Of a stretch of 64,000 nucleotides of DNA, positions 30,773 to 51,829 are shown piece after piece; within the stretch, counting starts at the first letter, position 1; each line of letters opens with the position of its first letter. The notes beneath the pieces were generated by a model, which saw only the letters and a program-made list of their open reading frames with translations, did no database searches and was not told the origin of the DNA. Both the position numbers and the translations under genes were made by a program. The stretch lies in NCBI RefSeq assembly GCF_028898945.1, contig NZ_CP118607.1, positions 3,582,001 through 3,646,000 of the forward strand. The letters are read 5' to 3'. This DNA comes from Pseudomonas sp. PSKL.D1 (GTDB taxonomy: Bacteria; Pseudomonadota; Gammaproteobacteria; Pseudomonadales; Pseudomonadaceae).

Positions 30773-30783
30773 GGGCCTGTCCG

Positions 30784-31758: not shown

Positions 31759-31878
31759 GGGTGCGGTCCTTGGAGTGGGTTGGCGGTCTGGTAAATCTAG
31801 CCGGGTGGGGGGTGGGTGCAATGGGGTGTCGTGAAGAGAGAATGGTGGGTGTTCGCGTTGAGGTGTTTGTCGCCTATT

Positions 31879-31990
31879 AGATCGAGCGCCGCCTTGCGGC
31901 GCATCGCGGATAAATCCGCTCCTACAGGGATTGCAGAACGCCTGTAGGAGCGAATTTATTCGCGATGCGCCGCAGGGCGGCGCTCGATCT
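31879..31990. repeat. REP element pair (inverted)
   Basis: AGATCGAGCGCCGCC...CTCCTACAGG (31879-31928) and CTGTAGGAGCGAATTTATTC...GCGCTCGATCT (31941-31990) form a nearly perfect long palindrome. It sits between the moxR promoter region and the 3' end of the cytochrome gene. Confidence 0.88.
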
Positions 31991-34269: not shown

Positions 34270-34406
34270 CGCATCGCTCCAGCGTCGGCCCCCGGTGCAG
34301 CGTAGTACACGCCGCGCGGGCTGCACGCAGTTGGGCAAAGCCGCGAAATCCTTCCTAACATGAATGCGTTGCAGCGTTTATGAAGCCTCTCAACAAGGAA
34401 CCGAGA

Positions 34407-35150
34407 ATGCCCATGCCCGTTGTTGGACACCGTTGCCTGACCGTGCTGCTGGCGCTGGCCAGCCTGACTGCACAGGCCGCCGAGCAGGACGCCCCGCAAC
34501 CGATCCGCGTGCTGCTTGCCGCCGAGCTGGAAACCACCCTGTCCAGCCAAATGAATGGCACGCTGGGCGAACTGAAGACCAACTTCGGCGAGCACGTGGC
34601 CAAAGGTGCCACGCTCGCGCGCTTCAACTGCAACGAGGCCCAGGCCCGCAACAAGGTGGCCGGGGCCGAGCTGGCCATGGCCCGGCAGAACCTGCAGGCC
34701 AAGCAGCAACTGCGCAAGCTGGACGCGGTGGGCGACATCGAAGTGGCCGCCGCCAATACCGAAGTGCAAAAAGCCGATGGCGCCCGCGCCATGGGCGAGG
34801 CGCAGATGAGCTACTGCCAGGTGCTGGCGCCGTTTTCGGGGCATGTGGCCAAGGTGTACGTCAAACCGTATCAAACGGTCAGCGCGGGCACGCCGCTGTT
34901 CGATCTGGTCAGTGACGGCGCCCTGAAGGTGCGCCTGAACGTGCCGTCCAGCCAGTTGAAAAACCTCAGCCCCGGCCAGCCGTTGGAGGTGGACGTGCAC
35001 GAGACGGGCAAAACCTACCCGGCCAAAGTCAGCGTGATCAACGCCCGGGTTGATGCCGTGGCGCAAACCGTGGAGTTGGAAGCGCGCTTCGACCAGCGTT
35101 TCCCTGAGTTGATGGCAGGCATGAGCGGCACCGCACGGTTTGCGCCATGA
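34407..35150 (+). CDS. periplasmic adaptor (HlyD/RND membrane-fusion type), first gene of the adhesin-export operon
   Basis: A 247-residue exported adaptor. The signal peptide (CLTVLLALASLTAQA) is followed by a lipoyl-like half-motif (MNGTLGELKTNFGEHVAKGATLARF), a coiled-coil hairpin (about residues 75-120) and the second lipoyl half (YCQVLAPFSGHVAKVYVKPYQTVSAGTPLFDLV). A beta-barrel domain comes last. It is short for the family. AAGGA lies 7-8 bases before the ATG at 34407; the earlier ATG at 34380 has no ribosome binding site. Its stop overlaps the start of the next gene (ATGA). It likely bridges inner membrane and the TolC-type protein encoded at the end of the operon. Confidence 0.85.
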   Translation: MPMPVVGHRCLTVLLALASLTAQAAEQDAPQPIRVLLAAELETTLSSQMNGTLGELKTNFGEHVAKGATLARFNCNEAQARNKVAGAELAMARQNLQAKQQLRKLDAVGDIEVAAANTEVQKADGARAMGEAQMSYCQVLAPFSGHVAKVYVKPYQTVSAGTPLFDLVSDGALKVRLNVPSSQLKNLSPGQPLEVDVHETGKTYPAKVSVINARVDAVAQTVELEARFDQRFPELMAGMSGTARFAP

Positions 35151-36493
35151 CCATGAACCAGCCGCTGCCGCACCCGCAACTGCTGCTGCAACTGGACGCC
35201 CTGCGCGACAAGGCGATGGCGGCCGAGTCGCTGAACGCACTGGCCTTCAGCATGGCCAACGACCTGTATCCGCTGCTGCCGTTTCATCAGGCGCTGGTGT
35301 TCAGGCAGGCCAAGGGGGCGTTCGAGCTGCTGTGCGTGTCCGGGCTGGCACGCCCCACCGAGGACTCGCCCTACCTGGTGTGGCTGAAACGCGCCAGCCG
35401 CTGGCTGGGCGAACAGGTAAAAAACCCGCAACCGGCCTGGCTCACCCTGGCCAACGCCACGCCTCCCGCCGACATTGCCGAAGGCTGGGCCGAGTGGTGG
35501 CCTGCCGGCCTGTGGTGCATCCCGCTGCATGGGCCAACCGGCGAACGCCTGGGCCTGCTGATGGTGCTGCTCGAAGAACCGCCGCCCGCGATCCTGCCCA
35601 AGCACCTGGATGGCCTGACCCGCACCTGGGCGTATTGCTGGAACACCCTCACCCGCCGCCAACGCCTGAGCCGCTGGCGCCCCAGCCGACGCCAGGTGCT
35701 GCTGGCCGTGCTGCTGCTCGGCGGCTTGCTGCTGGTGCCGGTGCGCCAGACCGCCCTGGCACCTGCGCAAATCGTGTCGCGCCAGGCGCAGATCGTCACC
35801 TCCCCCATCGACGGCGTGATCGCCCAGGTGCTGGTGCGCCCCAATCAGCCGGTCGAGGCCGGCACGCCGCTGTTCACGCTGGATGAAACGACCCTGCGCA
35901 GCCGTGCCGACGTGCTGGGCAAAGAGGTGGCCGTGGCCGATGCCGAACTGCTCGCCGCCAGCCAGCGAGCCTTCGACAACCCGCAAAGCAAGGGCGAGCT
36001 GACCTTGCTGCAAGGCCGCGTGCAGCAGCGCCGTGCCGAACTGGCCGCCGTGCAGGCGCAGCTCAAGCGTACCCAGGTATTGGCGCCGCGGGCCGGGGTG
36101 GCGGTGTTCAGCGACCCCAACGACTGGCTGGGCAAACCGGTGTCCACCGGCGAGCGCATCATGCACGTGGCCGACCCGGCGCAACCGGCCATGCAGATCC
36201 AGCTCGCCGTGGCCGATGCCATCGCCCTGGAGCCGGGTGCCGAGGTCACGCTGTTTCTCACCGCCTACCCGCTGAGCCCGCTCAAGGGCAGCATCCTGGA
36301 AACCAGCTACCAGGCCAAGCCGACCGACGACGGCGTGGTGGCCTACCGCCTGCTGGCCAGCATCGACGAGCAGCCCGAACATGCCCGCCTCGGCCTGCAC
36401 GGCACCGCCAAACTGTACGGCGGCCGGGTGATGCTCGGGTATTACCTGCTGCGCCGGCCGCTGGCCACGTTGCGCGCCTGGAGTGGCTGGTAA
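35147..36493 (+). CDS. GAF-like domain / membrane helix / HlyD adaptor hybrid
   Basis: A 448-residue protein. Residues 1-165 form a cytoplasmic domain resembling a GAF fold (LPFHQALVFRQAKGAFELLCVSG; LWCIPLHGPTGERLGLLMVLLEE). A membrane helix follows at about 182-199 (VLLAVLLLGGLLLVP), then a periplasmic HlyD-type adaptor with lipoyl halves (IVTSPIDGVIAQVLVRPNQPVEAGTPLF; VLAPRAGVAVFSDPNDWLGKPVSTGERI) around a coiled coil. A sensory-like domain joined to a secretion adaptor is unusual and suggests that export is gated by a cytoplasmic signal. It is translationally coupled on both sides (ATGA upstream, TAATG downstream). The GAF assignment is by pattern only. Confidence 0.8.
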   Translation: MTMNQPLPHPQLLLQLDALRDKAMAAESLNALAFSMANDLYPLLPFHQALVFRQAKGAFELLCVSGLARPTEDSPYLVWLKRASRWLGEQVKNPQPAWLTLANATPPADIAEGWAEWWPAGLWCIPLHGPTGERLGLLMVLLEEPPPAILPKHLDGLTRTWAYCWNTLTRRQRLSRWRPSRRQVLLAVLLLGGLLLVPVRQTALAPAQIVSRQAQIVTSPIDGVIAQVLVRPNQPVEAGTPLFTLDETTLRSRADVLGKEVAVADAELLAASQRAFDNPQSKGELTLLQGRVQQRRAELAAVQAQLKRTQVLAPRAGVAVFSDPNDWLGKPVSTGERIMHVADPAQPAMQIQLAVADAIALEPGAEVTLFLTAYPLSPLKGSILETSYQAKPTDDGVVAYRLLASIDEQPEHARLGLHGTAKLYGGRVMLGYYLLRRPLATLRAWSGW

Positions 36494-38613
36494 TGCTCGA
36501 CCCGGCCGACCTGCCGCTGCCGCCGCTGCGCGAGGACCTGCGCCTGTGCGATGCCGCCGACAACCGCGACGGTGAACCGGGGTGGATGATCCACGACACC
36601 GTGGTCAACCGTTTCTACCGCATCGGCTGGCTGGAGTTCGAGTGCCTGTTGCGCTGGGGCCAGTCGCCCCGGCAGATCAGCGAACAGGTGGCGCGCGACA
36701 GCGCCTTGAAACCGGATGTGGAACAGGTGCTGGAGCTGCGCGCCTTCCTCGAACACCACCACCTGCTACGCGCCGGGCCCGAACAACTGGGCAAGCTGCA
36801 GGCGCAGAGCGAAGCGCGCACCTGGTCGAGTTGGCGCTGGTGGTTGCACCATTACCTGTTCTTTCGCGTGCCGCTGCTACGCCCCCAAGCGGGCTTGCAA
36901 CGTTTGGCCGGGGCGCTTGGCTGGCTGTTCCACCCATTGACCGGTTGGCTGGTGATCGGCTTGAGCCTGCTGGGCATCCTGCTGGTAATCCAGCAGTGGG
37001 ACACCTTCACCCATGCCGTGGTCGAGTCGTTTTCCACTGAAGGCCTGTTCAGCTTCGCCCTGGCCCTGATCGTGGCCAAGACCTTGCACGAGCTGGGCCA
37101 TGCGCTGGTCGCCACGCGCCTGGGTTTGCGGGTGGGGCACATGGGGGTGGCTTTTCTGGTGTTGTGGCCGATGCTGTACACCGACACCGGCGAAAGCTGG
37201 AAGCTCAAGCATTCGCGCCAGCGCCTGGCGATCGCTTCGGCGGGCATCGCCACCGAGCTGTCGCTGGCGGGCCTGGCGACGCTGGGCTGGGCGCTGTGCG
37301 ACGACGGCGCGCTGCGCAATGCCTTGTTGTACCTGGCCACCACCAGTTGGGTGCTGTCGCTGGCGCTCAACGCCAGCCCGTTCATGCGCTTTGATGGCTA
37401 CTTCATCCTCAGCGACCTGCTGGACTTCCCCAATCTGCACGAACGGGCCTCGGCGCTGGCCCGGGTGGCCCTGCGACGCAACCTGCTGGGGCTGCACGAG
37501 CCGTGGCCGGAGCCGTTCCCCAGCCACCAGCGGCGTTTGCTGGTGGCCTTTGCCTTCGCTACCTGGCTGTACCGTTTGGTGCTGTTTCTGGGCATCGCCG
37601 TGGCGGTGTACCTGTTCTTCTTCAAGCTGTTGGGGATCGTACTGTTCATGGTCGAAATCGCCTGGTTCATCGCCCTGCCGGTCAAACGCGAACTGAGCCA
37701 CTGGTGGCAGCAACGGTCGCGCATTCCAGGGCAACGCAAGCGGCTGTTCTACCTGTGCCTGGCGCTGGGTGTGCTGGCCTTGGCGGTGCCATGGCACAGC
37801 CAGGTGGATGCCGTGGGTGTGGCCCGGGCCGAGCATCAGTTGCGCGTGTACACGCCCTACCCTGCACGCTTGCAGAGCCTGCGCGAGCAGGGTGAGGTAA
37901 AAGCTGGCGAAGTGCTGGCGACGCTGAACGAGCCGGACCTGGACTCACGCCTGCGCAGCAGCGAGGCCACCGCACGCAGCTACCAGGCACGGCTGTCGGG
38001 CCTGCTGGCCGACCCGGCCGGGCTGAGCGTGGACGCCGCCACCCAGCAACGCCTGAACGTGCAGAACGAAGAGGCCCGCTCGGCGCGGGTGGAAATGGCC
38101 CGCCTGAATTTGCAGGCGCCGTTTGCCGGCATCTGGCTGGACCGCGACCCCGACTGGCGTCCGGGGCAGTGGGTCAACCGCCAGGAGCCGCTGGGCATTC
38201 TCATCGACCCTGGCCGCTGGCAAGTGGATGCCTATGTAGCCCAGGACCAGGTGCACCACCTTGCCGTAGGCAACAGCGTGCGCTTTTACCCCGACGGCCA
38301 GCCCACCGCGCTGCAGGGCAAAGTGCTGGCCATCGGCAGTACACGCGCCAATCAACTGGCCCACCGCATGCTGTCGTCGCACTTTGGCGGGCCGGTGGCA
38401 ACGGGCAACCAACCGCTGGTGCCGACCCATGCGGTGTTTCAGGTGCTGATTGCGCTGGATGAACCGCTGGTTGGCCTGCACGAAACGCGGGGCAGGCTGA
38501 AGATCGACGGGGAGCGGCGCTCAATCTCACCGGCGACAAACACCTCACGGCCCCCTCATCAACCCACGCACCAAAATGGTAATTCCGGTCTACGCTTGCG
38601 AATCTGGCGTTGA
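36493..38613 (+). CDS. site-2-protease-like (M50) membrane protein fused to an adaptor domain
   Basis: A 706-residue protein. Residues 1-95 resemble a PqqD-like/winged-helix module. A multi-helix M50 peptidase core follows, with both zinc motifs intact: His199-Glu-Leu-Gly-His203 and Asn293-Ala-Ser-Pro...Asp301-Gly302. After a last membrane helix (LFYLCLALGVLALAVPW, about residue 417) there is a periplasmic HlyD-like adaptor domain (YTPYPARLQSLREQGEVKAGEVLATLNEP; LNLQAPFAGIWLDRD; WQVDAYVAQDQVHHLAVG). M50 proteins cleave within membranes. Here the enzyme could process or anchor the exported adhesin while the adaptor half joins the export conduit. It occupies the place where a type I ABC transporter would normally be encoded. 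Confidence 0.85.
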   Translation: MLDPADLPLPPLREDLRLCDAADNRDGEPGWMIHDTVVNRFYRIGWLEFECLLRWGQSPRQISEQVARDSALKPDVEQVLELRAFLEHHHLLRAGPEQLGKLQAQSEARTWSSWRWWLHHYLFFRVPLLRPQAGLQRLAGALGWLFHPLTGWLVIGLSLLGILLVIQQWDTFTHAVVESFSTEGLFSFALALIVAKTLHELGHALVATRLGLRVGHMGVAFLVLWPMLYTDTGESWKLKHSRQRLAIASAGIATELSLAGLATLGWALCDDGALRNALLYLATTSWVLSLALNASPFMRFDGYFILSDLLDFPNLHERASALARVALRRNLLGLHEPWPEPFPSHQRRLLVAFAFATWLYRLVLFLGIAVAVYLFFFKLLGIVLFMVEIAWFIALPVKRELSHWWQQRSRIPGQRKRLFYLCLALGVLALAVPWHSQVDAVGVARAEHQLRVYTPYPARLQSLREQGEVKAGEVLATLNEPDLDSRLRSSEATARSYQARLSGLLADPAGLSVDAATQQRLNVQNEEARSARVEMARLNLQAPFAGIWLDRDPDWRPGQWVNRQEPLGILIDPGRWQVDAYVAQDQVHHLAVGNSVRFYPDGQPTALQGKVLAIGSTRANQLAHRMLSSHFGGPVATGNQPLVPTHAVFQVLIALDEPLVGLHETRGRLKIDGERRSISPATNTSRPPHQPTHQNGNSGLRLRIWR

Positions 38614-38634
38614 ACTTCCGAACAGGTAGTCATC

Positions 38635-41600
38635 ATGGACATGAAGAGCAGAGCCGGTCTAGCCGCTGCATTGCGCCCACGGTCACAAACCCTGGCCCTT
38701 GAGCAGCGCATCCTGTTCGACGGTGCCGCCGCCGCGGCCGTCGACCAGCAGCACAGCGCCCCCAGCCACGCCGAGGCCAAGGACACGGCCCACCCAGCCC
38801 CCACCGCCAGCGAGGCGCAAACCACCGCTGCACCGGCCGCCCAACCACGCAACCTGGTGGTAATCGATGCCCGCGTGGAAAACCGCGACCAACTGGCCGC
38901 CAACCTGCCTGCAGGCACAACGGCGCTGGTGGTCGACGCCGGCCAGGACGCCATCGCGGCCATCAGTACTGCCCTGGCGCAACTGGGCAAAGTCGATTCC
39001 ATCCAGGTGTTCTCCCACGGCGCCGCCGGGCAGTTCACCCTGGGCAACCAGGTGTTCACCCAGCAAACCGTCGAGCAATTGGGCGACCGCCTGAGCAGTT
39101 GGCGCAGCGAGCTCAACGCTGGCGCCGACATCCAGCTGTACGGCTGCGACGTGGGCGCCGGCAGCAGTGGCCAGGCCCTGGTCAACGAACTGGCGCGCTG
39201 GACTGGCGCCGACGTGGGCGCCTCCAGCAATGCCACCGGCAGCCAGCTGGCAGGCGGTGACTGGCAGTTGGAAGTCAGCAACGGCGACGTGGACAAGTCC
39301 ATCGCCCTGGCCGCCTCGACCCTGGCCAGCTTCCAGGGGCTGCTGGCCGATGCCAGCCCCACCGCCAACCTGAGCAGCGGCGGCGCCGAGGTGCAACTGG
39401 GCGAGCAGTTCACCTTTACCGTCAGCTTCACCAACCCCTCCACCCAGGAAGGCTACGCGCCGTACATCGACCTGTTCATGCCCGCCACCGGGCGCGACGG
39501 CGACGATGGCGCCACGTTCGTTTCCGCCACGTACCTGGGCCAGGCGGTGAACAGCTTCGTCATCACCTTTGACGCCAACGGCAACGCCACTCACCCCTTG
39601 GCCAAGGACGCCAGCGGCAATGCCCTGGTGATCAACGCCGCCAGCGTCGGCATGAAGCCGGGCGACCAGATGGTGGTGCTGCAACTGCCCTATGCCAGCG
39701 TCACCAGTGGCCAGCCGAGCATCGACATCCAGATCACCGGCCTGCTCAGCAACCTGGCCGACACCACCTACTCGGACGGCGCACCCAACCTCACCATCAA
39801 TGCCCGCGCCGGCTTCGAGTACGGCAACGATTCGCTGAACAACCCCGTGCAGGACCCGAGCCTGGTGGAAGCCTCGCTGCACAGCTTCATCGTCACCCCG
39901 ACCCTGCTGAAGGTGACGCAAACGGTCAACATGCCCGAAGGCGAAACCGTCACCGGGCCCAACTACACCCGCACCCAGACCGTCACCGTCACCCCCGCCC
40001 CGGGGCAGACCCTGACCAACGTCACCGTCACCCAGACCGTGCCCGACCAGGTGCACGTCAGTGCCATCACGCCGGGCGCGGGTGGCACCCTGACATCCGT
40101 CACCCTGCACGACGGCCGGGTGCTGACCAACCCCGCCGCCATCGCCGCGGCGCTGGCCGACCCCAACGTGTTCGTCGAGAGTTACAGCATCCACTACGAC
40201 ACCCTCAGCGCCGCCAGCGAAACCCAGGTGAGCTTCTACGTGCCGGAGATCGACGCCAATGGCTCGCCCGTGCTCGACCCGGCCACCGGCAACCCGGTGA
40301 CCATCAACTTCGGCACCGCCAGCGTCACCGGCGACTGGAACCCGCTCGACCCCCGCGACCGCCCCACCGACCCCGACGGCTACCCGTTCAGTGAAACCGG
40401 CAACGGCCAGGGCGTGACCTTCGTGGCCAAGTCCATCACCCTGCTCAAGGCGGTAGACCTGCAAAACGACGTCGGCACCCCCGGCCTGACCCCTGGCGAC
40501 ACCCTGCGCTACACCATGGACGTTGCCATTTCCGACTTCTTTGCCTTTGGCGAGAACATCCTCGAACAAGGCCAGTTCACCGTCACCGACCTGCTCAGCG
40601 ATGGCCAGACGTTCAGCACAGCCAACCCGCCCACCCTGTTGCTGCAGGGCAATGGCGCCACGTTGAGCATTGCCCTGATCTACACCCAGACGGTGAATGC
40701 CGATGGCAGCACCACCCTGGTGTTCGACATTGCCGAATCGATACGCCAGGCGGTGGCCGGCCCGGGCGTGGCCGCGCTGTTTGGCGACCTGTACGACGAC
40801 ACCGAACAGAACGGCGCTACCGGCCTGCGCATCGTCTACGACGCCACGGTCGACACCACCTACACCAGCGACCACCCGCCCCACGACCAGCTCAACGAAG
40901 GCGACAGCGTGGGCAACAACGCCACCGTGGCGGCCACGGTGCTACGCGATGCGCTGAACATCGGCAGCACGCAGACCGACGGCTCCAGCACCACCAGCAC
41001 CATCCAGACCTCCACCGTGGACATCGAACTGACCCAGGTGAACAACGGCACCCCGCCCGCCAATGGCGAACTGCGCCCGGGCGATGTGGTGACCTTCACC
41101 ATCACCTACGACCTGCTGATCGCCGACTACGAAAACTTCAAGCTCACCGCCTACCTGCCGCTGCCGCTGCTCAACGCCACCGGCATTACCTGGAGCTTCG
41201 GTAACGGCGTGGGCCAGTGGAGCTTCGGCAGCGGCAACAACATCCCCGATGTGCCCGACAGCGTCACCACCGGCCCGGGCAACTCCATCGTTTTCGACTT
41301 CGGCAACTTCGTATCGGGCGGCCTGAATGGCGGCACCGTGCAAGTGCAGTTCACCATGGTGGTGGGCGACCAGCCATTTGCCGACCAGCGTGAACTGGAC
41401 GTACTGGCGCAGTCGAGCCAGACCACCACGGTGGACAAGGATGTGCTGGTGTCCTCCGACGTAGCGGTGATCGAATCGGTGGCCGAGCCAGTGCTGGACA
41501 TCAAGCACGGCGTGGTCAGCAGCAGCAATGGCACGGTTACCGGCACCACCGGCAGCTGGAATGCCCCGGGCACCGGCGGCGTGCCGTTCAGCGGCAGCGT

Positions 41601-44600
41601 CACCAGCCTGGCGGCGGTGGACGGCAACGTCAGCGGCATCGACGGCGCCGACACCCTGCGCCTGGCCACGGCCATCAAGAACACCGGCGGTGGCGGCGCC
41701 TTTGACGTGAGCACCAGCGTCACCCTGCCCAGCGGCCTGGCCTTTGTTGGCGGTAGCCTGAGTGCCGCCAACCTGCAGATTTTCCGGGGTGACGGCACGC
41801 AACTGGTGCTGGGCACCGACTACAGCGTCAGCGGCAACACCATCACCTTCCTCGACGCCAACGGCCAGGCCACCCTGCTGGCCGGGCGCGCAGGCACGGC
41901 CAGCGACCTGTCCGGCGCCAACGTGGTGGTGATTACCTACGACGTCACGGTAAACGCCGCGATCCTGGCCTCCAGCACCCTGCAAAGCAGCGCCGCGCTG
42001 ACCAACTACGCCAGCGTCAACGGCGGCCAGGACTTCACCCCTACCGACCTGGTAGAGGTTGCCGACCAGCAAGTGGCCGCGCCGAGCATCACCAAAACCT
42101 ACCAGAACGGCAGCCTCAGCGACGACGACTCCAGCGCTTCGCACACCACCGGCAGCAACCTGGTGATTGGCGAGAGCATGACCTACGACATCGTGGTCAA
42201 CCTGCCCGAAGGCTTTACCGGCAGCCTGCGCATCAACGACCTGATTCCGCCCGGGCTGCGCCTGGACCCGCGCTTCAACGGCAACCTGGGCTTCCAGATC
42301 ATCACCACCGTGGCCGGCAGCGCGGCGCTCGGCGCCGACTTCAACGGCACGCTCAACGTCAACCCGGTCACCCTGGACGGCAGTGACGGCGCCGACCTGA
42401 TGCTGGTGTTCAGCAGCGCAGGCGCAACCGCCGACAACGATACCGGCAACAACAGCTTCGTCATCCGCCTGGTGCTGGTGGCCAGCAACGTGCCCGGCAA
42501 CCAGCAAGGCACCACGCTGAACAACGGCGCGCAGTTGGTGTACAGCGATCCCGACGGCGATACCCCCAATGGCACCGCGCCAGCCGAGCGCAGCGTGATC
42601 AGTGCCCAACAGCCCAGCGTGACCATTGTCGAACCCACACTCACGGTCACCCAGCAGATCACCTCGACGCCGGTGTTCGGCGGGTATGAAGACGGCGATG
42701 TGGTGGACTTCGAAATCGTCATCAGCAACACCTCCGGGGTCAATGCGTTCGACATCAGCCTGCTTGACGGGCTGCCGACCGAACTGAGCGGCATCACCCT
42801 GACCGGTGTGGTGTACAGCGGCGGCGCCAGCAACAACGGCGGCGCCGACTTCATCATCCAGAACGGCCAGCTGATCAGTGTCAGCGGTGCGAACATCGAC
42901 ATCACCAACGGCGGCAGCATCACCCTGCGCCTGACCGGCACCGTGAATGCAACCGCTGCCGGCCAGGCGGCCTTCCCCAACGCGGTGGAGGTACGCTGGA
43001 CCAGCCTGGACGGCACCAACAACACGGTCGACATCACCAGCGGCGAGCGCAGCGGTGAAGACGGTGTACTCAATGGCGGCACCCTGAACGATTACCGGCT
43101 CAATTCGCTGCTGCTGTTCCCGGTCAGCAACGGCATCCGTATCAGCCGGGTGGGCGGCGTGGCCGACACGGCCCCGGCCACCAACAGCAGTGGCGCCACC
43201 GACACCAGCGGCCTCAGCGAAAACGTGGTGGTTGGCGAAATCGTGCGCTACCGCGTGGCGGTGCTTGTGCCCACGGGCGACAACCCGGATTACCAGATCC
43301 GGATCGAGCTGGCAGCAGGCCTTGAGTTTATCCCGGCCAGCCTCAACGACATCCTGATCGCGTTCGTCTCCAACACCCCCGCCGGGCTCACCAGCGATGC
43401 GCTCAACCTGATCAGCAGCGGCACCCTGAGCATGCAGGGCAACGAGCTGAGCGACGTGACCCAGGGCATTCAGCCCGACCTGTCCGGCGCCGTACCCACC
43501 GGGGTATTCGACATCAACAACGGCCGGCTGGTGATCGTGACCAACGCCGATGGCAGCCAGACGGTAACCTTCAACCTGGGCAACCTGACCAACACCGAAA
43601 TCAACGACCCCGACGTCGAAGGCGTGGTGCTGGAGTTCAACGTGCGGGTCAGCAACGTGGCCAGCAACCAGTCGGGGGCCAACCTTGGGGTTACGGCCCA
43701 CGAACACGTCGGCCTCAACGGCGGCGTGGACCGCGGCGTGAGCGACACGGTGTTCGAACGCGTGGTCGAACCCAGCTTCACCGGCCTGGACAAGACCGTG
43801 ATCGACGTGGCGCCGGGCAGTGGCACCACCACCGCCACGGTGTCGGTCAGCTTCACCCAGAACGGCGAAGTGCCCGCCTACAACACCCACCTGGCCGACC
43901 AGTTCCCCAACGGCAGCAACTACCAGGTGCAGAGCATCCTGCTCAACGGCGTGGCCATTGACCTGGACAACCCGCCGGCGGGTGTAAGCTTCAGCCAAGG
44001 TACCGGCATCACCCTGGACTTCGAGCGCCTGGCGCCGAACGACAGCGTGCAGGTGATCTACACGGTTGTCCTGCCCAACGTCACCATCGCCGACAACGCC
44101 GCCAGCGCCGCCGTGCTGACCTGGACCAGCCTGCCCACCGACTTCGAAACCGACGGTTGGAGCGGCTCGCTGCCCGACACCGCAGGGGGTGCCGCTGGCG
44201 AGCGCACCGGCCAGGACGGTGCCAGCGGGTTGAACAACTACATCCTCAGCGACGGCGCCGGCATGGGCGTGATTCAAGGCACCCTGTGGGACGACACGCG
44301 CAGCGCCACCGACAGCGTCACCCCCGATGGCACGGGCCTGGACGGCATTGCCGTGACCCTGACCTGGGCCGGCGACGACGGCCAGTTCGGCAATGCCGAC
44401 GACCGCACGTTCACCACCGTCACCGCCAATGGCGGCCTGTACCAGTTCGCCCTGCTGCCCTCGGGGAGTTACCTGGTGGTGGTGGCCCAGGACCATCAGG
44501 CCAGCGCCAACAACAATTACCGGGTGCGCATCGACACCGACACTGCTGCCGCCATCGCCGGGCTTGGCAGCATCAACCTCAACCTGGGCGAAGGCAGCAC

Positions 44601-47600
44601 CGGCACCGCCGATGCCGGTTACGTGCACCTGAACGAAGCGCCGGTCAACACCGTCGCCGACCAGCACGGGGCCGAAGACACCGTGCTGCACCTGACCGGG
44701 CTGGCCATCAGCGATGTGGATGTTAACGCCGGCAATGCCGACGGAGTGATGACCATAACCCTGAGCGTGCTGCACGGCGTGCTCTGGCAAAGCGCCACGC
44801 CCCCCGCCGCCAACGCCACCCCGCCGACAGGCGCGGGGCGCAGCCTGGTGCTCACCGGCACGCTGGCCGAGCTGAACGCAGCCTTGGGCCAGCTCTATTA
44901 CAAGGGCGATCAGGACTTCAACACCTTCCGCGAGGTGGAAACCCTGACCATGGTCACCAATGACCAGGGCAACTTCGGTGACCATCCCACCAGTGGCGAC
45001 GGCATCCCGGGGCAGAACCCGGCCGATGCGCTGACCGACACCGACGTGTTCAATATCGTGCTCGACCCGGTCAACGATGCGCCCATTGCCCACAACGACC
45101 AGTACATCGCCGTGGAAGCCGGCGGCCTGAACAACGCCGACCCCGGCACCAACCCCACGGGCAACGTGCTGGACAACGACACCGACGTGGACATCCAGAC
45201 CAACGACGATTTTCTCACCGTCACGCAGATCGCCGGCCCCAACAACCCGGGAGGCATCGCCGTGGGTGGCAGCGCGGTCACCACGATTCAGGGCCTTTAC
45301 GGCACCCTGTTCATCACCGAGACGGGCGCCTTCCAGTACATCGTCAACAATGACGACCCCGCCGTGCAGGCGCTGCGTACATCGGGCGACTTCCTCAGCG
45401 AAGTGTTCGTCTACGACATCATCGACAGCGGCGGCCTGGGCAGCCGGGCGCAGTTGCTGATCAACATCCACGGGGCCAACGACACCCCCATTGCCAGCGG
45501 CGATGTCGGCATCGCCATTGAGGCCGGCGGTACCAACAACGGCACCCCCGGGCAAGACGCCACGGGCAACGTGCTGGACAACGACACCGACGTGGACTCG
45601 GTGGCCCTGGGCGAAACCAAAGCTGTTAACGCCGTGCGCTACGACGGCCCCGGTGGCGGCCGGATCATCCCGATCAGCAGTGGCTCGGCGACCAACATAC
45701 TGGCGGCGTTCGGTACGCTCACCGTCAACGCCGACGGCAGCTACCGCTACGTCATCGACAACAGCAATGCCGCGATCCAGGCCCTGTCCCCCGGCGACAC
45801 GCTGGTGGAGCAGTTCACCTACCAGATGGTCGATGCCGGTGGCTTGAGTTCGGTGAGCGTGCTGGTGATCACCATTCAGGGGGCCAACGACGCACCCGTG
45901 GCCGTGGACGACCGTGGCAGCGCCACGGCAGGCGCCAGCGATGGCAGCCCGGCCCCGGTCAACGCCAACGGCAACGTGATCACCGGCAACAATGGCGTGG
46001 GTACCGATACCGACGTCGACAACGGCGACCAGCCCACCGCCACCCAGCTGAAGGTGGACGGTGTGCGCAGCGGCCTGGAAAGCACAGGCGGCACACTCAG
46101 CCCTGTTGCTAGCGGTGCCCCGGCGTCGATTGCCGGCACCGTGGCGCGGCTGGCCGACAACAGCCTGATCAGCGGCAACTTCGGCCAATTGGTGCTCAAC
46201 GAAGACGGCACCTACAGCTTCACCGTGAACAGCGCCGACCCGGCCATTCTTGCGCTGAGTGCCGGGCAAAGCCTGGAAGTGATCTTCACTTACCAGATAC
46301 ACGACAGCGGCGGGCTGACCGACCAGGCGCAACTGGTGATCACCGTTACCGGCGTCAACGACCCACCCGTGGTCAACCCGGTCACGGTAGATGCCGTCGA
46401 AGCCGGCGGCCTGAACAACGCCACTCCAGGCCTGGACCCCAGCGGCAGCATCCGCGGCGCCTACAGCGACCCCGATGGCGACACCCTGACCATCACCGGT
46501 GTGATCAACCCCAGCGGCACCAATGGCACGGTGGGCCAGAGCCTGGCCGGCAACTACGGCAGCCTGGTGCTCGATGCCCAGGGCAACTACCGCTACGTGG
46601 TGGACAACGCCAACAGCGCCGTGCAGGCCCTGCGCACCGATGCCGACCGGCTGACCGAGGTGTTCCAGTACAGCGTCAGCGATGGCAATGGCAAAACCGT
46701 CACTGCCACCTTCACCGTGGTCATCCACGGCCGCAACGACACCCCCGTCGCCGCCAATGACAGCGCCATCGCCATCGAGGCCGGCGGCACCAACAACGGC
46801 ACCCCGGGCCAGGCCGGCAGCGGCAATGCCCTGGCCAACGACCAGGACGTGGACGCCGGCGACAGCAAGGCCGTGGACGGCATCTACCTGGGCACCCTGG
46901 CGGCGGGCGGCACCTTCGTGCAAGTCAACGCCGGCGCCACGACCCTTGCTGGCAACTACGGCACCCTGAGCATCGATGCCAACGGCAACTACGTGTACAC
47001 CGTCAACGACAGCCTGGCCGCCGTGCAGGCACTGAAGGCGGGCGAAAGCCTGAGCGAAACCTTCAGCTACCGCATGCACGACACCGCGGGCGCCAGCTCG
47101 CAGGCGCAAATCAACATCACCATTGAGGGCCGCTACGATGCGCCGGTGGCGCACGACGACATCGGCTACGCCGTGGCCACCGACGACGACGGCAACGGCG
47201 GGCGCAGCCCCAGCGGCAATGTGCTGAACAACGATACCGACGTGGATGCCAACGACACCAAGACAGTCACCGCCGTGGGCGTGGGCGCCGAGAGCAGCAA
47301 CCCGACCCTGGACCCGCTCACCGGCACCGCCACGGTCACCACCAACTACGGCACGCTCACCCTCAACGCCAACGGCACCTACCAGTTCGTGGTCAATTCC
47401 AGCGACCCCGACATCATCGCGCTGGGGCCATTGGGCTTCGTCATCCAGCGTTACACCTACCAGGTCACCGACGGCGGCGGCCTGAGCGACACGGCCACCC
47501 TGTATATCCTGATCCGCGGCGAAAACCAGCCACCGGTGGCCAACCCGGATCAAGGCCTTGCCATCGAAGCCGGCGGCCTGGGCAACAACATCCCCGGCAG

Positions 47601-49164
47601 CAACCCGGCCGGTAACGTGATGGACAACGACACCGACCCCGACAGCATCAACATCCTGGTGCCGGAAACCCTTGAAGTGCTGGCCTTCTGGAGCGGCGAC
47701 GGCCCGTTGCCCAACAACGCAGCCCTGACCGGGCAAACCCTGCGCGGCCAGTACGGCGACCTCACGCTGAACGCCGACGGCACCTGGAGCTACACACTGG
47801 ACAACAGCCTGGCGGCAGTGCAGGCCCTGCGCGTCAGCGGCCAAACCCTGACCGACAACTTCAGCTACCTGCTGACCGACCTGTGGGGCGGCACCGCCAA
47901 CGGTTTGCTGACCATCACCATCGACGGGCGCAATGACTTCCCCGTGGCCAACGACGACACGGCAGCCGCGGTGGAAGCCGGTGGCGTGAACAACGGCACC
48001 GCTGGCGTGGACCCACGCGGCAACGTGCTGGATAACGACACCGACGTGGATGGCGTGCAGTACGGCGAAACCAAAACCGTGGTGCAGTACACCGGCGAAA
48101 ACGGCCAGGTCGCCACTGCCGGCCAGGTGCTGCAAGGCCTGTACGGTACGCTGCTGATCAACGCCGACGGCAGCTACCAGTACGTGGTCGACAACAGCAA
48201 CCCGACCGTGCAGGCCATGCGCACCGCGGGCGAAGCGCTGCGCGAGGTGTTCACTTACCGCATGCGCGACACCGCTGGCGTGACCTCGGACGCCCGCCTG
48301 ACGGTCACCCTCCAGGGCGCCAACGACAACCCCGTGGCCCGCGACGACAGCAACTTCGCCAGCGACCAGGTGCCCGCCCCACAGACCAGCGGCAACGTGC
48401 TGCCCAACGACAGCGACGTGGACGGCGGTGACAGCCTGACCGTGACCGGCATCCGCACTGGCCAGGAAGGTGCCGGCGGCACAGCGGGCGTGGTCGGCCA
48501 ACCGATCGCCGGCCGCTACGGCACGTTGGTGCTCAATGCCGATGGCAGTTACACCTACACCCTCGACCTCAGCAACCCAGATGTGCTGGCGGCGGCTGGC
48601 CTTGGCCAAGTACTGCAGGATTACTTCACCTATACGATCAGCGATTTGGCGGGCGCTACCGACCAGGCGCAATTGACCATCACGCTGGACATATCCAGCC
48701 CGTACATTCCGCCAGGCCCGTACCTGGACCGCGACAGCCGCAACGGTCAAGGCGGCCTGCCGCTGCCGAGCGTAACGCCGGCGATCTTCGTGGCGCCGGT
48801 GGTTGAACGGGTGAACCAGGCCTTGACCCTGTCGGCGTGGGACGCCGACGGCAGCAACGTGCAGTTGTTTGCCACCCCTGAAATCGAGAGCCAGTCGCTG
48901 GGCGCCCAACTGGGCCAGGTCAACGGCCAGTTCGTGGCCCAGGCCGTGGCCAACAGCCGCCAGGCCAGCAGTGAAGACAAGAACTGGGTGGATGGGCGCC
49001 AGGGGGTCATCAGCCTGACCGCCGATGGCCTGCTGCCCGACCCGTCCCTGTGGGCACCACTCCCCCGCGACATGGTGCCCGAACAACAGCGTGCACAGCC
49101 TGCCAATGGCTTCCGCGCGCAATTGCGCGAGGCCGCCGAGCGGCGCGGCAGCAATGCGCCCTGA
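38635..49164 (+). CDS. giant LEPR-XLL/DUF4347/VCBS-repeat adhesin (3509 residues)
   Basis: Residues 20-32 (LALEQRILFDGAA) match the LEPR-XLL-type N-terminal motif; there is no classical signal peptide. Residues about 70-225 are a DUF4347 domain (VQVFSHGAAG-like, IQLYGCDVGAGSSG, VNELARWTGADVGASSN). Residues about 235-1870 are repeated DUF11-like beta-sandwich modules (TVTQTVPDQV, FTITYDLLIADY). An SdrD/Cna-B-like domain lies at about 1878-1990, a cadherin-like module at about 2000-2140, and nine VCBS repeats at about 2147-3352. The acidic, Gly/Asn/Asp-rich, nearly Cys-free composition is typical of biofilm adhesins. No C-terminal RTX nonapeptides are present; the tail (3352-3509) ends RREAAERRGSNAP-like. 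It is encoded between the M50/adaptor and TolC-type genes, which are its presumed exporters. Confidence 0.88.
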   Translation: MDMKSRAGLAAALRPRSQTLALEQRILFDGAAAAAVDQQHSAPSHAEAKDTAHPAPTASEAQTTAAPAAQPRNLVVIDARVENRDQLAANLPAGTTALVVDAGQDAIAAISTALAQLGKVDSIQVFSHGAAGQFTLGNQVFTQQTVEQLGDRLSSWRSELNAGADIQLYGCDVGAGSSGQALVNELARWTGADVGASSNATGSQLAGGDWQLEVSNGDVDKSIALAASTLASFQGLLADASPTANLSSGGAEVQLGEQFTFTVSFTNPSTQEGYAPYIDLFMPATGRDGDDGATFVSATYLGQAVNSFVITFDANGNATHPLAKDASGNALVINAASVGMKPGDQMVVLQLPYASVTSGQPSIDIQITGLLSNLADTTYSDGAPNLTINARAGFEYGNDSLNNPVQDPSLVEASLHSFIVTPTLLKVTQTVNMPEGETVTGPNYTRTQTVTVTPAPGQTLTNVTVTQTVPDQVHVSAITPGAGGTLTSVTLHDGRVLTNPAAIAAALADPNVFVESYSIHYDTLSAASETQVSFYVPEIDANGSPVLDPATGNPVTINFGTASVTGDWNPLDPRDRPTDPDGYPFSETGNGQGVTFVAKSITLLKAVDLQNDVGTPGLTPGDTLRYTMDVAISDFFAFGENILEQGQFTVTDLLSDGQTFSTANPPTLLLQGNGATLSIALIYTQTVNADGSTTLVFDIAESIRQAVAGPGVAALFGDLYDDTEQNGATGLRIVYDATVDTTYTSDHPPHDQLNEGDSVGNNATVAATVLRDALNIGSTQTDGSSTTSTIQTSTVDIELTQVNNGTPPANGELRPGDVVTFTITYDLLIADYENFKLTAYLPLPLLNATGITWSFGNGVGQWSFGSGNNIPDVPDSVTTGPGNSIVFDFGNFVSGGLNGGTVQVQFTMVVGDQPFADQRELDVLAQSSQTTTVDKDVLVSSDVAVIESVAEPVLDIKHGVVSSSNGTVTGTTGSWNAPGTGGVPFSGSVTSLAAVDGNVSGIDGADTLRLATAIKNTGGGGAFDVSTSVTLPSGLAFVGGSLSAANLQIFRGDGTQLVLGTDYSVSGNTITFLDANGQATLLAGRAGTASDLSGANVVVITYDVTVNAAILASSTLQSSAALTNYASVNGGQDFTPTDLVEVADQQVAAPSITKTYQNGSLSDDDSSASHTTGSNLVIGESMTYDIVVNLPEGFTGSLRINDLIPPGLRLDPRFNGNLGFQIITTVAGSAALGADFNGTLNVNPVTLDGSDGADLMLVFSSAGATADNDTGNNSFVIRLVLVASNVPGNQQGTTLNNGAQLVYSDPDGDTPNGTAPAERSVISAQQPSVTIVEPTLTVTQQITSTPVFGGYEDGDVVDFEIVISNTSGVNAFDISLLDGLPTELSGITLTGVVYSGGASNNGGADFIIQNGQLISVSGANIDITNGGSITLRLTGTVNATAAGQAAFPNAVEVRWTSLDGTNNTVDITSGERSGEDGVLNGGTLNDYRLNSLLLFPVSNGIRISRVGGVADTAPATNSSGATDTSGLSENVVVGEIVRYRVAVLVPTGDNPDYQIRIELAAGLEFIPASLNDILIAFVSNTPAGLTSDALNLISSGTLSMQGNELSDVTQGIQPDLSGAVPTGVFDINNGRLVIVTNADGSQTVTFNLGNLTNTEINDPDVEGVVLEFNVRVSNVASNQSGANLGVTAHEHVGLNGGVDRGVSDTVFERVVEPSFTGLDKTVIDVAPGSGTTTATVSVSFTQNGEVPAYNTHLADQFPNGSNYQVQSILLNGVAIDLDNPPAGVSFSQGTGITLDFERLAPNDSVQVIYTVVLPNVTIADNAASAAVLTWTSLPTDFETDGWSGSLPDTAGGAAGERTGQDGASGLNNYILSDGAGMGVIQGTLWDDTRSATDSVTPDGTGLDGIAVTLTWAGDDGQFGNADDRTFTTVTANGGLYQFALLPSGSYLVVVAQDHQASANNNYRVRIDTDTAAAIAGLGSINLNLGEGSTGTADAGYVHLNEAPVNTVADQHGAEDTVLHLTGLAISDVDVNAGNADGVMTITLSVLHGVLWQSATPPAANATPPTGAGRSLVLTGTLAELNAALGQLYYKGDQDFNTFREVETLTMVTNDQGNFGDHPTSGDGIPGQNPADALTDTDVFNIVLDPVNDAPIAHNDQYIAVEAGGLNNADPGTNPTGNVLDNDTDVDIQTNDDFLTVTQIAGPNNPGGIAVGGSAVTTIQGLYGTLFITETGAFQYIVNNDDPAVQALRTSGDFLSEVFVYDIIDSGGLGSRAQLLINIHGANDTPIASGDVGIAIEAGGTNNGTPGQDATGNVLDNDTDVDSVALGETKAVNAVRYDGPGGGRIIPISSGSATNILAAFGTLTVNADGSYRYVIDNSNAAIQALSPGDTLVEQFTYQMVDAGGLSSVSVLVITIQGANDAPVAVDDRGSATAGASDGSPAPVNANGNVITGNNGVGTDTDVDNGDQPTATQLKVDGVRSGLESTGGTLSPVASGAPASIAGTVARLADNSLISGNFGQLVLNEDGTYSFTVNSADPAILALSAGQSLEVIFTYQIHDSGGLTDQAQLVITVTGVNDPPVVNPVTVDAVEAGGLNNATPGLDPSGSIRGAYSDPDGDTLTITGVINPSGTNGTVGQSLAGNYGSLVLDAQGNYRYVVDNANSAVQALRTDADRLTEVFQYSVSDGNGKTVTATFTVVIHGRNDTPVAANDSAIAIEAGGTNNGTPGQAGSGNALANDQDVDAGDSKAVDGIYLGTLAAGGTFVQVNAGATTLAGNYGTLSIDANGNYVYTVNDSLAAVQALKAGESLSETFSYRMHDTAGASSQAQINITIEGRYDAPVAHDDIGYAVATDDDGNGGRSPSGNVLNNDTDVDANDTKTVTAVGVGAESSNPTLDPLTGTATVTTNYGTLTLNANGTYQFVVNSSDPDIIALGPLGFVIQRYTYQVTDGGGLSDTATLYILIRGENQPPVANPDQGLAIEAGGLGNNIPGSNPAGNVMDNDTDPDSINILVPETLEVLAFWSGDGPLPNNAALTGQTLRGQYGDLTLNADGTWSYTLDNSLAAVQALRVSGQTLTDNFSYLLTDLWGGTANGLLTITIDGRNDFPVANDDTAAAVEAGGVNNGTAGVDPRGNVLDNDTDVDGVQYGETKTVVQYTGENGQVATAGQVLQGLYGTLLINADGSYQYVVDNSNPTVQAMRTAGEALREVFTYRMRDTAGVTSDARLTVTLQGANDNPVARDDSNFASDQVPAPQTSGNVLPNDSDVDGGDSLTVTGIRTGQEGAGGTAGVVGQPIAGRYGTLVLNADGSYTYTLDLSNPDVLAAAGLGQVLQDYFTYTISDLAGATDQAQLTITLDISSPYIPPGPYLDRDSRNGQGGLPLPSVTPAIFVAPVVERVNQALTLSAWDADGSNVQLFATPEIESQSLGAQLGQVNGQFVAQAVANSRQASSEDKNWVDGRQGVISLTADGLLPDPSLWAPLPRDMVPEQQRAQPANGFRAQLREAAERRGSNAP
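45073..48690 (+). repeat. nine tandem VCBS-repeat coding units
   Basis: Units of about 120-160 codons begin near 45073, 45475, 45886, 46360, 46735, 47134, 47524, 47932 and 48325. Each opens with an NDxPVAxxD-type strand; six carry EAGGxNN, and most have GNVLDNDTDVD and a YGTLxxNADGxYxYxVD segment. Protein-level similarity is high but DNA copies have diverged, so this is an old array and not a recent slippage product. Confidence 0.85.
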
Positions 49165-49201
49165 CGCCGACGCCTCATCACGGATTGAACAAGGACAGCC
49201 T

Positions 49202-50710
49202 ATGCCAGTATCGACATTGAGAAGCCTGAGCACCGTCACCGCCCTTGGCCTGCTGCTCGGTGCCTGCTCGGCCTTCGAGCCCAAACCCTACACCGAAGAC
49301 GAAATGCGCCAGCGTGTGATCGAAGACCAGGCGCGCATGTACAAGGAGCAAGAGCCGGTCAACGGCCCGATCACCTTCTACGAAGCCTCGGCGCGGGCCT
49401 TGAAGTACAACCTCGACTACCGCCTGAAACTGCTGGAAAGCGCGCTGGCCTCGGACCTGCGCGATGTGTCCAGCCACGAAATGCTGCCACGGCTGGTGGC
49501 CTCGGCGGGCTATGCCGGGCGCAACAACGACTCTGGCGGTACCTCCATCGGCATTGAAGACCGCCAGGTCAGCTTGCGCCCGTCCACCTCCGAAGAGCGC
49601 TACCGCACGTTGTACAGCCTTGGCCTGTCGTGGAGCCTGCTGGACTTTGGCGTGGCTTACTTTCGCACCCAGCAAAAAAACGACCAGATGCTGATGGCCG
49701 AAGAGCGCCGCGAAAAAGTGGCGCAGAACGTGCTGCAGGATGTGCGCAATGCCTACTGGCGCGCCCTCGGCGCCCAGCGCCTGCTGCCGGAAGTAGACGG
49801 CCTGCTGATGCGCACCCACCGCGCCCTGACCTCGGCGCGTGAGGCCGAAGGCAAAGGCCTGCTGCCGCGCCAGGACATCCTGGCCTATCAGCGCGCCCTG
49901 CTCGACTCGGTGTACATGCTCACCGTGCGCCGCCAGGACCTTGAGTTTGCCCGCGCCGAGCTGGCCGCACTGATGTCGCTGCCGCCGAACACCCGCATGG
50001 TGCTGGCCGACGGCAGCGAGCAGCCATTGCCGCTGCTAAATGGCAACCTGGAAAAGCTTGAACGCCTGTCACTGGAGCACCGCCCGGAAATCATGGAAGA
50101 GTGGTACCGCAAGCGCGTGAGCATGAACGACCTGAAAATCGCCAAAGCCCAGCTTTGGCCGAACGTGAGTTTCAACTACGGCTACGAGTACGACTCCAAC
50201 AAGTACCTGTACAACAGCGACTGGAACCAGACCGGCATCAACGTTTCGATGAACCTGCTGCGCCTGCTGCAGTACCCGGACATCAATCGGGCCGAAGAGA
50301 GCCAGGCCAAGGCCGACGACATGCGCCGCACGGCGTTGTCGATGGCGATTTTGACCCAGGTGCGCGTGGGCCTTTTGCGTTACCAGCTGGCCCGCCAGGA
50401 AGTGGACTTTGCCGATGAAAGCCTTCGTGTGGACCAGAGCCTGCTCGATTACGCGCGTTCCTCGCGCAGTGCGGCGCTGGGCAGCGAACTGGAGCTGATC
50501 CGCGCCGAAGGCCGGCTGCTGCTGTCACGGTATCAGCGCGAGGCGGCGTACTCCGATGCCCAGGCGGCGTGGGGGCGGTTGTACAACTCGGTGGGGTTTG
50601 AGGTGATGCCCAAGGAAATCGAGCAGCATGATGTGAAGACCTTGGCGCGGGAGATTCAGCGCACGGTGGAGCAGCAGACGCAACAGAACCTGCTGGCCAC
50701 CGGGCCTTAG
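49202..50710 (+). CDS. TolC-family outer-membrane lipoprotein
   Basis: A 502-residue outer-membrane factor. The lipoprotein signal is SLSTVTALGLLLGACSAF (lipobox LGAC). It is followed by two long helical repeats typical of TolC (LREALKYNLDYRLKLL-like start, VAQNVLQDVRNAYWRALGAQRLLPEV; DMRRTALSMAILTQVRVGLLRYQLARQEV) and beta strands (VSFNYGYEYDSNKYLY). The start at 49202 has AAGGA 6-7 bases upstream; an in-frame extension to 49025 overlaps the adhesin gene and is not credible. It is the last gene of the adhesin operon, 37 bases after the adhesin stop, and probably forms the outer-membrane exit duct with the adaptors. Confidence 0.88.
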   Translation: MPVSTLRSLSTVTALGLLLGACSAFEPKPYTEDEMRQRVIEDQARMYKEQEPVNGPITFYEASARALKYNLDYRLKLLESALASDLRDVSSHEMLPRLVASAGYAGRNNDSGGTSIGIEDRQVSLRPSTSEERYRTLYSLGLSWSLLDFGVAYFRTQQKNDQMLMAEERREKVAQNVLQDVRNAYWRALGAQRLLPEVDGLLMRTHRALTSAREAEGKGLLPRQDILAYQRALLDSVYMLTVRRQDLEFARAELAALMSLPPNTRMVLADGSEQPLPLLNGNLEKLERLSLEHRPEIMEEWYRKRVSMNDLKIAKAQLWPNVSFNYGYEYDSNKYLYNSDWNQTGINVSMNLLRLLQYPDINRAEESQAKADDMRRTALSMAILTQVRVGLLRYQLARQEVDFADESLRVDQSLLDYARSSRSAALGSELELIRAEGRLLLSRYQREAAYSDAQAAWGRLYNSVGFEVMPKEIEQHDVKTLAREIQRTVEQQTQQNLLATGP

Positions 50711-50906: not shown

Positions 50907-51770
50907 ATGCCCGTCGACCTGCACGCGCTGTACCCCAACCTGATCCACCTGATGCTGGACACCGTGTTCGTGGTCGACCGCGACAACTGCATCGTGTTTG
51001 TCAGCGATGCCTGCGAAACCTTGCTTGGCTACCGCGCCGACGAGCTGATCGGCACCCTGATCACCGGCTACATGCACCCGGACGATGTGCCCGCCACCCG
51101 CGCCTCGATCGTGCGGGTAATGAACGGCCAGCCGCACCTGGACTTTCGCAACCGTTACATCCGCAAGGACGGCGGCATCGTGCACATCTTGTGGTCGGCG
51201 TGCTGGTCCGACGAGGTGGGCGCGCGCATCGGCGTGGCCCGCGACGTGACCGCCCAGGCCCAGGCCGAAGACGAACTGCGCTTCCTGGCCCACCACGACC
51301 CACTGACCCACCTGAGCAACCGCGCGCGCTTCAACGAGCGCCTGGACGCCGCCCTGCACGCGGCCCGTCGGCACAGCCACAACGTGGCGCTGCTGTTTCT
51401 GGACGTGGACGGCTTCAAGGGCATCAACGATGCCCATGGCCACGCGGCCGGTGACCAGGTGCTGCGCTCGATTGCCCGGCGCCTGGAGCGTTGCGTACAG
51501 GCCCACGACACCCTGGCGCGCATGGGCGGTGACGAGTTCACCGTGCTGCTGCCTGAGGTGGCGTGTAGCACCGCCGTGGCCGAAAAGGTGGTGGAGATCC
51601 TGTCGGTGATGGCCGAGCCGCTGGAGGCCGGGCTGCCGGGGCTGGCGATGCCGGCCTGCAGCATTGGTGTGGCGATGTACCCGGAGCACGGCACCGATGC
51701 CGATGCGCTGCTCAGCCACGCGGACAACGAGATGTACCGGATGAAACGGCAACGGGTTGCGGCGGGGTAA
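50907..51770 (+). CDS. PAS-GGDEF diguanylate cyclase
   Basis: A 287-residue protein. The N-terminal PAS domain covers about residues 12-120 (DTVFVVDRDNCIVFVSDACETLLGY..., RNRYIRKDGGIVHILW). A GGDEF domain follows from about 128 (HHDPLTHLSNRARFNERL), with the active-site motif Gly207-Gly-Asp-Glu-Phe211, so synthesis of c-di-GMP is expected. The inhibitory I-site normally reads RxxD five residues upstream; here it is QAHD, so product feedback is probably lost. There are no membrane segments. It sits 60 bases upstream of the bacteriophytochrome gene and just downstream of the adhesin operon, and is likely co-transcribed with the phytochrome. Confidence 0.9.
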   Translation: MPVDLHALYPNLIHLMLDTVFVVDRDNCIVFVSDACETLLGYRADELIGTLITGYMHPDDVPATRASIVRVMNGQPHLDFRNRYIRKDGGIVHILWSACWSDEVGARIGVARDVTAQAQAEDELRFLAHHDPLTHLSNRARFNERLDAALHAARRHSHNVALLFLDVDGFKGINDAHGHAAGDQVLRSIARRLERCVQAHDTLARMGGDEFTVLLPEVACSTAVAEKVVEILSVMAEPLEAGLPGLAMPACSIGVAMYPEHGTDADALLSHADNEMYRMKRQRVAAG

Positions 51771-51829
51771 ACGATCGCCACACAGAATGCGCTTGAAGGG
51801 CCGCCCCCTGCTAGACTCACGCCATTCCC

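Follow-up and report, generated by a model that had tools for sequence, protein, structure and literature searches.

Within a 64,000-nucleotide stretch of Pseudomonas sp. PSKL.D1 (contig NZ_CP118607.1, positions 3,582,001 to 3,646,000; hereafter the window, part of a one-contig genome, G000, of 5,877,130 bases, with Pseudomonas proteins as its nearest named relatives), five genes encode a short adaptor, a GAF-like transmembrane (TM) adaptor, an M50 site-2 protease fused to an adaptor, a giant adhesin and a TolC-type lipoprotein. Here, we show that this module is real and conserved, and that a LEPR-type motif at the N-terminus of the giant protein, not the DUF4347 domain behind it, marks the pairing with the M50 fusion. 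We read the operon as a module dedicated to processing and exporting giant adhesins that are poor in cysteine, under the direction of a leader, a reading to which we give a probability of about one half. The gene set, the predicted folds, the catalytic residues, the co-occurrence of LEPR and M50 and the lack of a recurrent ATP-binding cassette (ABC) gene are shown here, and from these we infer the steps of transport, cutting, binding and release.

Of the 149 genomes searched in the genus, 72 have the fusion and 70 have DUF4347, with both in 69, M50 only in 3, DUF4347 only in 1 and neither in 76 (Fisher 1.3e-37), and DUF4347 lies within 20 kb of 71 of the 85 M50 copies. Across 185 genomes of the class the two are found in 22 and 20, and together in 14 versus 2.4 expected (p 2.5e-11), so the co-occurrence named as a check in an earlier reading of the bare sequence (the original prediction) goes beyond chance at both levels. 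The M50-only genomes G208, G234 and G255 each have, with its end next to the TolC gene, a large open reading frame (ORF; 1276, 1822 and 1689 aa, truncated by the limits of the stretch), and a substrate without DUF4347 is therefore likely. In 14 genomes of the class sample, DUF4347 proteins with an N-terminus that could be read carry a LEPR-type motif there (LEPRxMFDGA-like, LEPRLLLSAD-like or LENRIVLDA; G034, G068 and G090 were set aside as short or partial, and LENRIVLDA of G056, missed by the pattern, was read by eye). All 14 have an M50 protein with a domain resembling the recognition element (RRE) of ribosomally synthesized and post-translationally modified peptides (RiPPs); 12 came from the first fusion search and two from a later profile only (G052 and G123, the latter a 97-residue piece at a contig end). 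Sec-type, apolar DUF4347 starts occur in three class genomes, with the fusion in one of them (G077, located elsewhere); in G128 and G165 fusion-profile matches cover the adaptor part only, which excludes DUF4347 alone as a marker of the system.

The same pairing is seen in 80 loci taken from named genomes, many of which end at contig ends, where the GAF-adaptor is present in 75, the short adaptor in 53 and TolC in 53. The motif stands in the first 120 residues of 16 of the 19 large ORFs beside the module (14 with strict LE[PQ]R; large meaning at least 800 aa, with a start inside the locus and at most 1.5 kb from the module), versus 1 of 713 other ORFs of at least 300 aa, and that one is the end-cut giant of L081. 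The module is found in Pseudomonas, Variovorax, Desulfopila, Nitrospira and others, and the motif was read in Variovorax (L062, L123), Nitrospira (L104; LESR in L093), Chromobacterium (L116) and more.

In the window, ORFs and profile matches confirm the five co-directional genes with the identities and positions originally predicted, all on the forward strand. The short periplasmic adaptor (34380-35150; HlyD/RND-MFP type, PF13437 1.3e-17, TIGR01730 9.9e-36, above cut-off) has a Sec-like N-terminus (apolar stretch peak 2.26), and the previously given start at 34407 is an in-frame Met inside its ORF. Its gene overlaps by 4 nt that of a second HlyD-type adaptor (35147-36493; PF13437 2.7e-17), for which we propose a topology with a cytoplasmic GAF-like domain and one TM segment; GAF scored in 4 of 15 members of its family (best E 1.6e-9) and not in the window's own protein. 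This gene in turn overlaps by 1 nt the gene of the 706-aa M50 fusion (36493-38613), which is followed by that of the 3509-aa adhesin (38635-49164) and the TolC-type outer-membrane lipoprotein (49202-50710, ORF from 49025; PF02321 (OEP) 5e-39, lipobox-like LLLGAC). The lipoprotein start is probably 49202, 37 nt past the adhesin end; genes described as mostly overlapping therefore overlap at two of the four junctions. A HlyD-type adaptor and a TolC-type channel, as in type I secretion systems (T1SSs), are thus both in the operon, and to this the present analysis adds an RRE-like domain, a fold for DUF4347 and a second copy of the module at G000:C1 ~3.27-3.29 Mb.

The fusion was modelled with AlphaFold 2 (pLDDT 92.4), and its parts were assigned from fold matches. 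Residues 8-94 (36514-36774) are predicted, in the model of the whole protein rather than of the domain by itself, to adopt the winged-helix fold of RiPP leader-recognition elements (PqqD, lasso-peptide B1); PF05402 (PqqD) matches 5 of 17 relatives and does not match the window protein itself. The zinc motifs HELGH (residues 199-203; 37087-37101) and NASPFMRFDG (residues 293-302; 37369-37398) are intact exactly where they had been noted, and an HExxH motif and an Asp motif within a membrane core identify an M50 site-2 protease. A dead protease is excluded, with H199, E200, H203, N293 and D301 invariant in 114 sequences. About residues 434-678 (37792-38526) match MacA/EmrA/MexA-type adaptors in fold. 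The last ~28 residues (38527-38610) do not match the relatives, most of which end in a ..REsGF-like tail that is missing here (73 of 80 have the letters RE among their final 12 residues). A single frame shift was rejected as the cause, given that neither other frame restores the relatives' tail. The operon order, with M50 before adhesin and TolC, is also unlike that of close relatives such as L059, in which the giant ORF and TolC come first, and the tail may have been replaced in a rearrangement.

Near its N-terminus the adhesin has LEQRILFDG (residues 22-30; 38698-38724), close to the typical form ALE[P/Q]RxMFDGA. The LEPR-XLL motif originally called here holds as a LEPR-type motif, and more precisely as the FDGA-type variant LEQRILFDGA, which scores 13.3 bits to the NCBIfam model LEPR-8K (NF012209), below its cut-off of 17. 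No Sec-like apolar stretch is found at this N-terminus by hydropathy, in line with the predicted lack of a Sec signal. Over 37 LEPR rows (34 distinct) the mean peak hydropathy is 1.39, with 35 under 2.0, while the three DUF4347 proteins of Sec type peak at 2.83, 1.91 and 2.72, and E, R and mostly D are conserved inside the motif. This argues against the adhesin crossing the inner membrane by Sec with an unusual signal, in which case the M50 part would act on signal peptides or in quality control, leaving the adaptors and TolC to serve outer-membrane passage only. Such a route would fit the basic residues ahead of the motif and the Ala-rich stretch behind it, and 4 of the 37 rows reach the lowest Sec-type peak, 1.91; moreover, a common task of M50 proteases is to remove what is left over from exported proteins. 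Overall, the hydropathy of LEPR starts appears mostly not Sec-like, with some overlap, and we consider passage by Sec unlikely.

Behind the motif, the adhesin has a DUF4347 domain (38854-39345; 8.6e-49) and nine VCBS/cadherin-type stretches. The domain has a predicted clan-CD, caspase/CHAT-like cysteine-protease fold, with His128 and Cys171 each at a strand end; Cys171 is the sole cysteine of the adhesin. The DUF4347 alignment (A3) combines the window's own stretch with 30 of the 39 that were found; the other nine were excluded as same-gene repeats or as short or doubtful, and several were trimmed. A search of the DUF4347 profile against sequences of solved structures was uninformative, placing de novo TIM barrels ahead of the true relative, 9qpe_G. 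A GGxGx[DN] search of the adhesin gives one degenerate match and an RTX array is therefore judged absent, as had been claimed. In place of a type I C-terminal secretion region with RTX repeats, there is another C-terminal motif, GFRAQL (49108-49125). The pattern [GSAPT][FL][SNTDAHR]x[QK][LIVFM], written after viewing the same 52 C-termini, fits 41 of them in the last 45 residues, compared with 2.4% of shuffles and 1.4% of internal windows. In 11 C-termini from separately fetched loci (one contig-cut, L141, and some of LEPR-XLL type) it fits 1, and a looser form fits 4. We take this weak motif to be a feature of a clade rather than a proven signal.

The same genome carries a second module at G000:C1 ~3,271,614-3,289,797, with short adaptor, GAF-adaptor, M50 fusion and TolC-type gene, and with a giant that has LEPRMMFDAS and DUF4347. 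Each of the two M50-adaptor genes found in the genome is thereby paired with one of its two LEPR and DUF4347 giants; a third M50 match is a 465-residue frame. Between M50 and adhesin, the second copy (L004/L005, G000:C1 3282530-3285593) has genes for an Asp/Asn beta-hydroxylase, which contains a Nif11-like stretch, and for sulfotransferase-like, acetyltransferase-like (by eye) and phage-tail-collar proteins, and similar genes are seen in the Pseudomonas loci L160/L161 and L162. The hydroxylase and sulfotransferase-like genes would suit a RiPP-type maturation factor, with LEPR as the leader for a chemical modification of the adhesin and export secondary. The predicted RRE fold points the same way, as does the best NCBIfam match of the fusion, the daptide protease model NF041824 (170.5 bits, below its cut-off of 300). 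However, hydroxylase and sulfotransferase-like genes were not found in the 80 loci or among the genes scanned beside the window operon, and we regard this explanation as very improbable.

In the module that we propose, the N-terminal LEPR-type motif would be the leader, the cytoplasmic RRE-like domain of the fusion would bind it, and the M50 core would cut near it at the inner membrane. Judged by family, the three adaptor parts (that of the fusion, the GAF-TM adaptor and the Sec-exported short adaptor) would join the TolC-type channel. DUF4347, with its caspase/CHAT-like predicted fold and intact His/Cys pair, would probably be a folded retention and self-release element. The suggestion that LEPR is a recognition or cleavage signal gains from the specific link to M50 and from the RRE-like candidate recognition domain, and recognition and cutting themselves are what we infer. 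The link between the motif and a single membrane protein, one predicted to have the fold of leader binders, makes the role of the motif directly testable.

A search with an LssB profile finds no ABC match inside the 64-kb window, which agrees with the predicted absence of an ABC ATPase at the locus. Likewise, when 866 ORFs of the 80 loci were clustered, every family that reached at least eight loci was of the adaptor/M50, TolC, giant-protein or opposite-strand (probably shadow) kind, so an ABC gene in or beside the operon, as in type I secretion, is neither present in the window nor recurrent among its relatives. Of 18 near-complete genomes with the fusion, five (G162, G053, G071, G106 and G153) gave no match of the T1SS ABC class at E<=1e-95 among 32 candidates scored in each. 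Three of these (G162, G071, G106; the best 32 of 43-65 candidates per genome) have both the fusion and a LEPR-DUF4347 protein, and in G162 the whole operon is in view. In G192 there is none at 1e-100 among the 14 of 88 candidates that were scored. With no ATPase gene beside the adhesin, and a protease with a leader-binding-like fold instead, the adhesin may therefore use an ABC-free route. The RRE-guided site-2 protease would then make up the inner-membrane component of a tripartite exporter with TolC, one whose cargo proteins are thousands of residues long, and the caspase-like DUF4347 would hold the adhesin at the channel and later release it. We put this forward tentatively, as possible but less probable than the module reading as a whole.

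Several observations weigh against these proposals. A T1SS-class ABC at E<=1e-100 is found in 67 of 68 module-bearing Pseudomonas genomes (68 of the 72 were tested, leaving out the window's own genome and three without DUF4347), and 22 of 80 Pseudomonas module copies have an ABC gene of LapB type no more than 25 kb away. In two such copies that were viewed, the ABC gene and an adaptor-like neighbour lie ahead of the module and share its strand; this proximity (L158/L159, L160/L161) is apparently that of an adhesin island. In the distant locus L149 an ABC gene directly follows the M50 gene. ABC ATPases are found in 7 of the 80 loci by clustering and in 9 by direct search (at most 98 bits to T1SS queries), the latter giving 15 ABC ORFs over 1422 kb, about the density of the window's own genome (80 stretches in 5.88 Mb). 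A T1SS transporter of LapB type encoded elsewhere could thus move the adhesin across the inner membrane, with the M50 fusion only processing it and supplying an extra adaptor, and the window's genome has four ABC genes above the LssB cut-off and one further T1SS-like gene. However, directly after each of these five comes a separate ORF of 394-458 aa that matches adaptors weakly (36-41 bits), and each has an ORF of more than 1700 aa in the same 19-kb stretch. Together with the genomes without a match, three of them with a LEPR protein, the lack of a recurrent ABC family and the adhesin's lack of an RTX array, this makes a transporter acting in trans unlikely in our view. The choice originally offered, between an M50-driven route and such a transporter, has shifted in part: the ABC alternative is weakened, yet these transporters are near universal in Pseudomonas, and an M50-driven route is a proposal.

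The main weakness is that no energy source can be assigned to the module, and site-2 proteases are not known to act as translocases. Leader binding is proposed from a predicted fold. The DUF4347 His is replaced by Glu or Gln in 3 of 31 sequences (L093, L104, L054), with Cys kept. Three module-side large ORFs have no motif (L061, probably a spurious ORF; L088, with a Sec-like start; L124, which starts within repeats). Species share history and the Fisher p-values therefore overstate independence. Finally, the window's M50 protein has no conserved C-terminal tail, and this copy may therefore be impaired.

Upstream of the operon, on the opposite strand (28361-34338), are genes for MoxR AAA, DUF58, VWA and cytochrome c/TPR proteins. 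Downstream, at 50907-54385 and co-directional with the operon, are genes for a PAS-GGDEF protein and for a phytochrome-HWE kinase, which are possible regulators of adhesion. A promoter scan found 0 versus 1.5 expected.

If a protein is moved here without an ABC ATPase, this would be a new means of adhesin display in Gram-negative bacteria, and the reach of RiPP-style leader recognition would grow to include proteins of several hundred kilodaltons. DUF4347 gains a concrete hypothesis, retention and self-release. In the limited literature searched, no description of this gene set (M50 and HlyD with adhesin, TolC or PqqD) was found, and none of a role for LEPR-XLL in the portions seen. The energized inner-membrane parts of tripartite exporters are named as ABC, RND and MFS in the portion of PMC8277102 examined, which does not mention an M50 protease (the term M50 occurs there once, as the number of a residue). 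We regard the module as a variant of tripartite export, which would count as a new category only once transport without an ABC protein is shown.

Several known systems share parts of it. The giant proteins of NF012209 (LEPR-8K, LEPR-XLL) likewise have an N-terminal motif, and L139 scores 32 bits to this model. Tce1 (PA0256), a type VI secretion cargo with DUF4347, is a separate 310-aa effector and not part of an adhesin, going by the portions of PMC13323088 and PMC8262886 seen, the former of which terms it a putative protease. The HExxH RiPP proteases of NCBIfam (NF041824, daptide; NF058609, YydH/LiaK) resemble the M50 region at 170.5 and 28.7 bits, below their cut-offs of 300 and 225, and the model spans omit the adaptor part. 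Compared with the RREs of RiPP systems (PqqD, lasso-peptide B1), the RRE here is fused to a protease and an adaptor, and what it presumably binds is the N-terminus of a protein with thousands of residues. Peptidase-containing ABC exporters of C39 type similarly couple leader recognition and proteolysis to export, a likeness in idea only, whereas here an M50 metalloprotease stands in for C39 in a protein without an ATPase. The closest comparison is type I secretion of LapA-type adhesins (LapBCE), which shares the giant repeat adhesin, the HlyD-type adaptor and the TolC-type channel. The operon described here differs in having no ABC gene, three adaptor parts, no RTX array, an N-terminal LEPR motif and an RRE-M50 fusion as its inner-membrane part.

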